A stretch of DNA of 64,000 nucleotides, taken from NCBI RefSeq assembly GCF_003990975.1, contig NZ_RZJR01000006.1, positions 1-64,000 on the forward strand, in the 5' to 3' direction. The notes below the pieces were generated by a model, which saw only the letters and a program-made list of their open reading frames with translations, ran no database searches and was not told the origin of the DNA. Numbering within the stretch: the first letter of the stretch is position 1; every line of letters begins with the position of its first letter. Shown here in pieces: positions 58,205 through 59,815 of the stretch. This stretch comes from Cohnella sp. AR92 (lineage in GTDB: Bacteria > Bacillota > Bacilli > Paenibacillales > Paenibacillaceae). Both the position numbers and the translations under genes were made by a program.

Positions 58205-58332
58205 GTAACGATCTTGTAGCTTAGTTTCCGGTGAAACCGGAAAGCGGGGGAACCAATCTTCTGGGGCGAATCGGTCTGCAAGGACCGTAGGGGACCATCT
58301 AACCCGAGTCCGTCAGCTAACCTCGTCAGCTT
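58205..58332 (+). ncRNA. c-di-AMP (ydaO/yuaA-type) riboswitch aptamer
   Basis: The ydaO consensus blocks occur in order: AGCGGGGGAACCAA (58242-58255), GGGGCGAATC (58263-58272), a variable stem with GTAGGGG (58287-58293), CCCGAGTCCGTCAGCTAACC (58303-58322) and CGTCAGC (58324-58330). I rely on memory of the family: ydaO aptamers carry GGGGGA(A)CC, GGGG(C/U)GAAUC, GUAGGG and GUCAGCUAACCUCGU in this order. c-di-AMP binding normally turns expression off. It is located immediately upstream of the KamA-family gene. Confidence 0.88.
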
Positions 58333-58337
58333 TGGAT

Positions 58338-58406
58338 GGGTCAATTATACGCGCAGCGGAGGAGATCCTCGGCTTGTCTTTTGACCCGTGCAGCGGGTCT
58401 TTTTTG
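58338..58406 (+). terminator. Riboswitch expression platform: terminator and antiterminator
   Basis: GACCCG (58383-58388) pairs with CGGGTC (58394-58399) around TGCAG and is followed by seven T. GGGTCAA (58338-58344) can instead pair with TTGACCC (58381-58387), which removes the 5' arm of the terminator. The layout fits c-di-AMP-controlled premature termination. The sequence between shows a further hairpin (GGAGGA/TCCTC) near 58363-58370. Confidence 0.8.
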
Positions 58407-58491
58407 CGTTCTGGCGCCTTCCGGCTCCTACCTGCAAGATCCGACGCGAGAAAGCCCGACAAGTTCAAAAAACAGCTAAAGGAGCGTGTCT

Positions 58492-59691
58492 ATGCCTCAG
58501 CCGAAGTATTTGATGAACATTGACAGGATCGAACGGATTCCCGAGTCGGAGAGAGAGCAGCTCAAGCGAATTACCGAGAAATTCGTGTTCCGCGTAAACG
58601 ATTACTACTTGGACTTGATCGACTGGAACGATCCTCACGATCCGATCCGCAAGCTCGTTATTCCGAATGCGGAGGAATTAGGGGAATACGGGCGCTGGGA
58701 CGCATCCGACGAGGATACGAACTACGTCGTTCCCGGGTGCCAGCACAAGTACGGAACGACGGCGCTCTTGATCGTCTCCGAGGTATGCGGGGCGTATTGC
58801 CGCTACTGCTTCCGCAAGCGATTGTTCCGGAATGATGTGAAGGAAGCGGTCTCGGACATCGAGCCCGGGCTGCGATATATCGCTCAGCGCAAGGAGATCA
58901 ACAACGTTCTCCTTACGGGCGGGGACAGCTTAATACTCGGAACGCCTAGGATTAGGATGATCCTAGAGCGCCTCAGGGAGATCGATCACGTGAAGATCAT
59001 CCGGATGGGTTCCAAGATCCCGGTGTTCAATCCGATGAGGATCTATGAGGACGAGGAGCTTCTCGATGCGATTCGCACCTATTCGTCCCCCGAGAAGCGA
59101 ATCTATGTCATGGCGCATATCAACCATCCCCGCGAGATCACGAAGGAAGCGGTCAAGGGGTTCGAAGCCCTGCATAACGCCGGCGCTATCGTCGTCAACC
59201 AAACCCCGGTTCTGCGCGGCATCAACGATGACCCGGCCGTGCTGGGAGAATTACTCGACAAGCTCTCGTGGGCGGGAGTGACGCCGTATTATTTCTTCGT
59301 GAACCGTCCCGTTGCGGGAAACAAGGCTTTCGTGCTGCCGTTGCGAGAAGTGTATGAGATCGTGGAGAAAGCGAAGGCGCTCACTTCGGGGCTAGGCAAG
59401 AGGGTTCGTCTCTCGATGAGCCATACTTCCGGCAAAATCGAGATCTTGGCAATCGACGGCGGTAAAGCCTACTTGAAATATCATCAATCGAGAGACAACC
59501 GGTACGGGATGTTCATGACGCTCGACTGCCCGGATGACGCCGCTTGGTTCGACGACCTGCCTGGCAGCGAGAAGTTCTGGACGAAGCCCGAGAAGAAGAC
59601 GAACGCCGTGGCGTCCGTGAACGCGATGCCGGACATGCCGACCTCCAAGAAATTATCGACGGGCAGGCAAGCCGCTTCTCAGAAGGAATAG
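58492..59691 (+). CDS. KamA-family radical SAM aminomutase, substrate uncertain
   Basis: Radical SAM/PLP aminomutases move an amino group between C2 and C3. The 399-residue protein has the cluster motif CGAYCRYCFRKR (Cys99, 103, 106), LTGGDSL, and a PLP-lysine candidate (Lys315) in SGKI. In lysine 2,3-aminomutase the substrate is held by two aspartates (YQCD and VDAPGGGGKI); by eye the matching sites here read YYFFVNR (Arg272) and RLSMSHTSGKI (Ser308). The start at ATG 58492 follows AAAGGAG. It lies behind a c-di-AMP riboswitch. Other possibilities: a lysine or beta-glutamate-type mutase. Confidence 0.85.
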   Translation: MPQPKYLMNIDRIERIPESEREQLKRITEKFVFRVNDYYLDLIDWNDPHDPIRKLVIPNAEELGEYGRWDASDEDTNYVVPGCQHKYGTTALLIVSEVCGAYCRYCFRKRLFRNDVKEAVSDIEPGLRYIAQRKEINNVLLTGGDSLILGTPRIRMILERLREIDHVKIIRMGSKIPVFNPMRIYEDEELLDAIRTYSSPEKRIYVMAHINHPREITKEAVKGFEALHNAGAIVVNQTPVLRGINDDPAVLGELLDKLSWAGVTPYYFFVNRPVAGNKAFVLPLREVYEIVEKAKALTSGLGKRVRLSMSHTSGKIEILAIDGGKAYLKYHQSRDNRYGMFMTLDCPDDAAWFDDLPGSEKFWTKPEKKTNAVASVNAMPDMPTSKKLSTGRQAASQKE

Positions 59692-59729: not shown

Positions 59730-59815
59730 AAGCCCCGCCAAGCCGTCATGCGTTCTAAAGGAACCGATTGGATTCCTGATTAGAAGAGGCGACGGCGAGG
59801 AGGGGCTTCGTTTTT
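59730..59815. terminator. Terminator between the KamA and namA genes
   Basis: AAGCCCC (59730-59736) and GCCGTC (59742-59747) pair with GGGGCTT and GACGGC at 59791-59808, followed by CGTTTTTC. It is long and lies between convergent genes. Confidence 0.75.

Follow-up and report, generated by a model that had tools for sequence, protein, structure and literature searches.

We analyzed a 64,000-nucleotide (nt) stretch of Cohnella sp. AR92 (contig NZ_RZJR01000006.1, positions 1 to 64,000 of the forward strand), referred to here as the window, in which a cyclic di-adenosine monophosphate (c-di-AMP) riboswitch lies upstream of a gene encoding a radical S-adenosylmethionine (SAM) and pyridoxal phosphate (PLP) aminomutase of the KamA family. 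The features of this locus, with their coordinates in the window, are the following:

58208..58346, plus strand: c-di-AMP (ydaO/yuaA) riboswitch aptamer, RF00379 (cmscan, 86.4 bits against a gathering score of 38, E-value 9.2e-19, model positions 1-134 of 134)
58333..58344, plus strand: left arm of the antiterminator, directly 3′ of the aptamer closing helix (inverted repeat)
58381..58392, plus strand: right antiterminator arm, which overlaps the terminator's 5′ arm (both inverted repeats share GACCCG)
58383..58405, plus strand: intrinsic terminator, a GACCCG/CGGGTC stem followed by TTTTTT (terminator scan)
58478..58484, plus strand: Shine-Dalgarno sequence aaaggag (read off the sequence)
58492..59691, plus strand: KamA-family radical SAM/PLP aminomutase of an unnamed subfamily, 399 amino acids (TIGR00238, AlphaFold model, residue columns)
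59794..59812, plus strand: possible transcription terminator 3′ of the gene, weak (terminator-like site)

The first-pass annotation had proposed a ydaO-type aptamer with a terminator and antiterminator between it and the gene, and our analysis located all of these elements, with the Rfam covariance model matching the aptamer over its full length and the terminator/antiterminator pair occupying positions 58333-58405. RF00379 is the sole Rfam match to reach its gathering score in the whole window. The two antiterminator arms are 12 nt long and 83% complementary, and the minimum-energy fold contains the antiterminator, with its left arm paired, at -69.7 kcal/mol; forcing the terminator gives -68.3 kcal/mol, a gap of 1.4 kcal/mol in these ligand-free calculations. 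Terminator-like sites numbered three in the scanned region against 1.9 in shuffles, so that the single terminator site is weak when taken alone, and the whole-leader fold has a z-score of -0.60, with 51 of 200 shuffles folding equally well, a figure that says little for a fold computed without ligand or pseudoknot. By its terminator/antiterminator anatomy the leader is an OFF-switch architecture. Compared with the ydaO/yuaA class as a whole, it has the full aptamer and the OFF-type platform, and we saw nothing unusual in this RNA. The genome of 6.02 Mb holds ten c-di-AMP riboswitches, so that chance would seldom place one a few hundred bases or less from any particular gene. Judging by the riboswitch class, and by analogy with the case tested in Dehalobacter (PMC9337991), c-di-AMP very probably lowers read-through of this RNA.

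The ATG at 58492 was preferred as the start of the gene over a GTG six bases upstream, the Shine-Dalgarno sequence preceding this ATG. Assignment of the product as a KamA-type radical SAM aminomutase, also made on first pass, is borne out, as the protein scores 216.6 bits against the TIGR00238 cut-off of 199.2 and carries the CX3CX2C cluster motif (C99/C103/C106), R108, R272, S308 and the PLP lysine K315. It scores below the cut-offs of glutamate 2,3-aminomutase (Eam, TIGR04368; 217.6 against 650 bits, in a match that begins only at model position 73), AblA_like_2 (214.6 against 396.25), lysine 2,3-aminomutase (TIGR03820; 205.6 against 525.4), arginine 2,3-aminomutase (TIGR04468; 191.9 against 600) and EpmB (TIGR03821; 184.4 against 369.3), and membership of the Eam, lysine, arginine and EpmB equivalogs was rejected on these scores. 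Lysine 2,3-aminomutase 2a5h is the sole match in a phmmer search of the PDB (E-value 1.4e-53) and also the top Foldseek match (E-value 1.4e-27, template-modelling scores 0.72/0.70, 31% identity) of the AlphaFold model, which has a mean predicted local distance difference test (pLDDT) score of 88.5. Identity to the eight Eam rows aligned is 30-33%.

To compare the substrate pocket, we aligned 120 orthologue loci (sets of 29, 80 and 11, of which the first two overlap and the last comes from other Bacilli families) with 30 Eam loci and 17 lysine-enzyme loci, the latter two groups being picked by NCBIfam scores over the equivalog cut-offs, except for two lysine-enzyme loci of the window's own family (L161 and L162) that were assigned by sequence and tree. 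In the lysine enzymes we take the aspartates D293 and D330 to be the pair that holds the lysine side chain, the comparison of columns being independent of these numbers. At the first of these columns (272 in the window protein), all 120 orthologues have Arg, all 30 Eam have Lys and all 17 lysine enzymes have Asp. At the second (308), the 120 orthologues have Ser (107), Ala (6), Val (5) or Cys (2), all 30 Eam have Asn and all 17 lysine enzymes have Asp. Neither column is Asp in any of the 120 orthologue loci, in agreement with the earlier proposal that both aspartates are changed in this protein, to Arg272 and Ser308, and that Eam has basic or neutral replacements there. E. coli EpmB has Asp at column 272 and Glu at column 308. 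A further basic position, 306, is Arg in 118 and Lys in 2 of the 120 orthologues, Val in 17 of 17 lysine enzymes, and Ile (28) or Leu (2) in Eam. Residues C99, C103, C106, R108 and K315 are invariant in the 120 orthologues and in all aligned Eam and lysine-enzyme loci. In one alignment the lysine enzymes have one residue more in the loop preceding Lys315, and the match of Ser308 to its column therefore depends on gap placement; the match of Arg272 is unaffected.

Two trees were built, a quick one of 74 rows and a careful one of 70 rows with the cluster columns removed. Both place the window protein, its orthologues and a group of paralogues that lack the cluster (see below) in a clade of their own, with Eam and the lysine enzymes outside it, and both reject placement with the lysine enzymes. 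The branch dividing this clade from the other two groups has a support of 100/100 in the 70-row tree, where the bootstrap had not fully settled, and the nearest row to the window protein is from Cohnella thailandensis. The outcomes that the first-pass annotation had named as fatal to its proposal, i.e., clustering with EpmB or lysine mutases, no covariance hit, or Asp at the two columns, did not occur.

Using a riboswitch model (R1) built from the ten aptamers of the window genome, the window's own included, we found the leader upstream of 57 of 80 orthologue loci in the larger set, all 57 in Paenibacillaceae and one of them (L064) cut by a contig end, and upstream of 22 of 29 in the smaller, overlapping set. 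Where present, the aptamer is on the strand of the gene and ends 94-466 nt upstream of where the aligned protein starts. The same leader occurs before named enzymes of the family. Among 398 genomes of the phylum, 135 have an Eam match over the cut-off, and 22 of the best-scoring 30 of these loci (L165-L194) are preceded by the riboswitch, spanning 9 of the 17 family codes sampled; on re-scanning with Rfam, all three positive Eam loci tested were matched and eight negatives stayed negative. By comparison, only 1 of 36 lysine-enzyme loci (L236), and 1 of 25 family codes, has the riboswitch, made up of 0 of 15 Bacilli loci, 0 of 2 from the window's family and 1 of 19 in a wider sample. This wider sample was taken from 40 genomes (those of the 30 Eam loci plus ten others that each gave several KamA matches) at one locus per genome, out of 30 over-cut-off matches listed, and 9 of the 19 loci lie inside the 30 Eam genomes. 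The difference between Eam and the lysine enzymes is significant by Fisher's exact test (22/30 against 1/36, p = 6e-10; against 1/19, p = 4e-6), and also when counted by family code (9/17 against 1/25, p = 4e-4).

Terminator-like hairpins within 200 nt after the aptamer are present in 71 of 79 orthologue leaders (overlapping sets) against 4.9 in shuffles, in 23 of 31 leaders of the cluster-less paralogues against 1.6, and in 20 of 22 Eam leaders against 0.6. Antiterminator complementarity is slightly above shuffles in the orthologues (median run 7 against 5.9) and the cluster-less paralogues (7 against 5.4), and not above them in the Eam leaders (5 against 5.3). The OFF logic therefore draws chiefly on terminator conservation and on precedent.

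These observations are most consistent with a c-di-AMP OFF switch acting on an aminomutase with an acidic substrate. An acidic substrate is somewhat more likely than not, and its best support is the riboswitch distribution: most Eam loci, whose two columns hold Lys and Asn, have a c-di-AMP riboswitch upstream, and lysine-enzyme loci rarely do. The window enzyme shares with Eam the KamA family, the catalytic residues, a basic side-chain column (Lys in Eam, Arg here) and the c-di-AMP riboswitch; it differs in its far lower TIGR04368 score, in Ser308 for Asn and in its separate clade. With lysine 2,3-aminomutase (KamA/AblA) it shares the fold, CX3CX2C, R108 and K315, and it differs in the Arg272/Ser308 replacement of the two aspartates and in a riboswitch that lysine loci rarely have. 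Under this reading, when c-di-AMP is high, i.e., without osmotic distress, the ligand-bound aptamer would block the antiterminator and transcription would stop at 58383-58405; when c-di-AMP falls, the antiterminator would form and the enzyme would be made. The [4Fe-4S] cluster on Cys99/Cys103/Cys106 would, with SAM, initiate radical chemistry on a substrate that PLP holds at Lys315. The side-chain carboxylate of this substrate would be bound by Arg272, with Ser308, a task that in Eam probably falls to the Lys and Asn of these columns. The likeliest reaction would be L-glutamate to beta-glutamate, which would serve as a metabolically inert compatible solute. Taking glutamate as substrate and the osmolyte role together, we put this reading at somewhat under one in two (about 0.47). 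Of the original hypothesis of c-di-AMP-repressed beta-glutamate osmolyte synthesis, the regulatory and pocket parts have held up (the aptamer, the OFF-type platform, the leader at 57 of 80 orthologues and the invariant Arg272); the product and the osmolyte role we infer.

Several observations weigh against this interpretation. The riboswitch is absent from 23 of the 80 orthologues of the larger set (all 15 in Bacillaceae and 8 of 65 in Paenibacillaceae), from 7 of 29 in the smaller set and from all 11 orthologues of other Bacilli families, and an Rfam re-scan of 12 of the 23 gave no c-di-AMP hit. Its association with Eam is lineage-structured, 12 of the 22 positive loci coming from a single family code. 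In the nine genomes where both enzymes were examined, the leader is on Eam in five and on the lysine enzyme in one (Eam only in four, lysine enzyme only in none, both in one, neither in four), which is not significant alone (p = 0.13); matching Eam and lysine loci genome by genome weakens the association, the direction staying the same. Ser308 is not invariant among the orthologues, and with the window protein outside the Eam clade and of such low identity to Eam, Arg272 may have arisen by convergence or may bind a different anion. The static compatible-solute pool that beta-glutamate forms in methanogens is a precedent in favour of the osmolyte role, and the paper describing it (PMC1224877) also states that a glutamate aminomutase was ruled out as its source there by early nuclear magnetic resonance work.

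The same switch could instead control synthesis of another beta-amino acid, from aspartate, glutamine, arginine or a modified substrate, with Arg272 binding a group other than that of glutamate. The separate clade, the 30-33% identity to Eam and the basic position 306, which has no Eam counterpart, fit this alternative, whereas Eam-like chemistry is indicated both by a basic amino acid at the column for the side chain and by the c-di-AMP riboswitch that the two kinds of enzyme have in common; we regard the alternative as somewhat unlikely. That the enzyme is metabolic, its beta-amino acid being an intermediate passed to a transaminase, is decidedly unlikely at the window locus, where the seven neighbours scanned include no such gene and where a c-di-AMP switch fits osmotic control. 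This idea draws on the Bacillaceae, in which a divergent HemL-like class III aminotransferase adjoins the orthologue at 9 of 15 loci (L104, L105, L065, L073, L076, L082, L116, L117 and L119), with gaps of 223-379 nt between the open frames. All nine loci are without a riboswitch, and in two scanned cases the aminotransferase scored below the HemL cut-offs. Several of these loci also have a MurR/RpiR-like regulator and a fused TRAP permease nearby, a further point for a metabolic role. An aminotransferase neighbour suits catabolism as well as osmolyte synthesis and so also counts against the osmolyte reading; among the loci with a riboswitch, none has a close homologue of this aminotransferase, the distant one at L050 (102.8 bits) being 1.8 kb off.

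A lysine 2,3-aminomutase whose pocket had been remodelled, with beta-lysine or N-epsilon-acetyl-beta-lysine as its product, would account for the KamA family membership and would have a precedent in the c-di-AMP riboswitch published before ablA of Dehalobacter (PMC9337991) and in the one lysine-enzyme locus with a riboswitch, L236. It is very unlikely given that Asp is at neither column in 120 of 120 orthologues, that the score is less than half of the lysine 2,3-aminomutase cut-off, and that an acetyltransferase is absent among the seven neighbours scanned. An EpmB-type enzyme for beta-lysylation of elongation factor P shares with the window protein its KamA family membership only and has next to no probability, in view of the EpmB score of 184.4 bits against 369.3 and of the Asp that E. 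coli EpmB retains at column 272. Finally, the selected role of the subfamily may be at least partly non-catalytic, as is suggested by paralogues without the cluster: all 31 examined have the riboswitch, and the groups tested have low pairwise ratios of nonsynonymous to synonymous substitution (dN/dS). For the window protein this has only a slim chance, since the catalytic residues checked are kept in it and in 120 of 120 orthologues.

These paralogues came to light through a KamA family search of the window genome, which gave three matches, with the window gene alone over the cut-off; the other two are a gene on contig C32 (87.6 bits, below the cut-off) and a match on C18 (19.7 bits). The C32 gene (L122:5850-6893) encodes 348 amino acids; the cysteine stretch is missing from the protein, and Leu occupies the column of the PLP lysine. 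It has a c-di-AMP riboswitch of its own (L122:5538-5687) with a like terminator/antiterminator platform, riboswitch and gene together covering C32:464537-465895 (L122:5538-6896). A search of 394 genomes of the family found 145 with any KamA match and gave 30 further cluster-less loci (L131-L160), drawn from the listed partial or weaker matches that are not lysine enzymes; we left out G012:C17, G245, L163 (without riboswitch) and L164 (with riboswitch) as pieces that seem to come from broken or contig-edge catalytic genes. The riboswitch lies just upstream in all 31 cluster-less loci examined (20 of 20, 10 of 10 in L151-L160, and the window genome's own), and CX3CX2C is present in none of the 31. 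In the 27 rows that were counted in the 70-row tree alignment, with L136 and three short loci left out, Cys is missing at the C99 and C103 columns in 27 of 27 and at the C106 column in 26 of 27, D145 and R171 are kept in 27 of 27, R306 in 26, R272 in 20 and the PLP lysine in 9. The cluster-less rows form one clade (support 80/66, long branches, L136 left out).

Within close groups covering 27 of the 31 cluster-less loci, Nei-Gojobori dN/dS is 0.04-0.32 (0.19-0.21 in the group of the C32 gene; one short pair was saturated), and three unsaturated pairs of catalytic genes gave 0.06-0.08. The 27 tested loci are thus under purifying selection, and decay into pseudogenes was rejected for most of the cluster-less copies. 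A few may be decaying or truncated, i.e., L160, which is split over two frames, and L138-L140, which are short open frames of 214-218 amino acids. A full-length catalytic orthologue is listed in 13 of the 31 genomes with a cluster-less form and in none of the other 18, so that the cluster-less protein was rejected as an obligatory partner of the catalytic one. The AlphaFold model of the C32 protein (pLDDT 76.8 overall) is confident only over residues 50-300 or so, and its best PDB match is again 2a5h, at 20% identity. At about half of the 31 loci (14-16, depending on the gene) a glyA-like gene lies upstream, and pspA, DUF350, DUF4178 and DUF4247 genes lie downstream on the same strand; for the C32 gene this row occupies L122:7062-9512, with domains assigned by Pfam. 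The riboswitch might also affect this downstream row via read-through. The C-terminus I/V-x-D (e.g., EIPD, QIGD) occurs in 16 of 21 aligned cluster-less rows and in 0 of 7 catalytic rows. Two loci from other Bacilli (L224 and L225) have KamA-like domains within open frames of 603 and 626 amino acids.

We tentatively suggest, at slightly less than even odds, that KamA proteins under c-di-AMP control have split in two, into a catalytic form with an acidic substrate and a selected, cluster-less pseudoenzyme for osmotic or membrane stress. The latter could not carry out radical SAM chemistry, and would perhaps serve as a scaffold or sensor, with binding of the former substrate retained. Among the matches listed by a literature search on radical SAM pseudoenzymes and aminomutases, no title concerns cluster-less KamA proteins.

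No Eam or lysine enzyme over its cut-off is present in the window genome. The seven scanned neighbours of the window gene include no pathway partner, and a conserved operon partner was sought across the Paenibacillaceae loci and none was found. c-di-AMP is known mainly for control of K+ transport, osmolyte transport and wall hydrolases. Eight further c-di-AMP riboswitches of the genome were assigned to downstream genes by eye; their targets include a KimA-like K+ importer and Ktr-like and Kdp-like K+ transport genes, the last sitting behind a 140-amino-acid frame, and four of the genome's riboswitches precede wall-acting proteins. Another precedes genes for a haloacid dehalogenase (HAD) phosphatase, which matches the hexitol phosphatase HxpB only below the cut-off, and a mannitol-1-phosphate 5-dehydrogenase, which passes NF002652 (437.2 against 356), at L129:2131-4456 on contig C35. 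Taken as a set, the c-di-AMP riboswitch targets of this genome look like an osmotic regulon, in line with the main reading, and the phosphatase/dehydrogenase pair suggests an osmolyte route in which c-di-AMP governs the making of mannitol.

A lysine aminomutase under c-di-AMP control has already been published (PMC9337991): a tandem Na+/c-di-AMP riboswitch before ablA of Dehalobacter sp. CF was tested by in vitro transcription, and the discussion names Na+ riboswitches before eam. Both that system and, by its predicted switching, the window locus place an aminomutase gene under a c-di-AMP OFF switch acting by termination; in Dehalobacter the gene encodes a lysine enzyme and a second aptamer senses Na+, whereas here a single aptamer precedes a member of an unnamed subfamily. 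In the open literature, with subscription papers and supplementary gene lists outside the scope of the search, PMC9337991 alone was found on c-di-AMP or ydaO together with an aminomutase or beta-glutamate, and nothing was found linking kamA and c-di-AMP; seven further papers on riboswitches, aminomutases and osmotic topics reveal no such connection in their titles or opening abstract lines. The link between the riboswitch and Eam may already be known; the window locus sets a known riboswitch class before an unnamed aminomutase subfamily.

If our reading is correct, a large group of soil Firmicutes would make a beta-amino acid osmolyte under direct c-di-AMP control. The work also defines an aminomutase clade of unassigned substrate, for which it predicts simply that Arg272 goes with an acidic one, and the association of the riboswitch with Eam makes the beta-glutamate idea testable where the enzyme class is already named. 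Our impression is that the cluster-less paralogues may be an uncommon instance of a radical SAM fold surviving the loss of its cluster, still maintained by selection and still subject to a single regulator.

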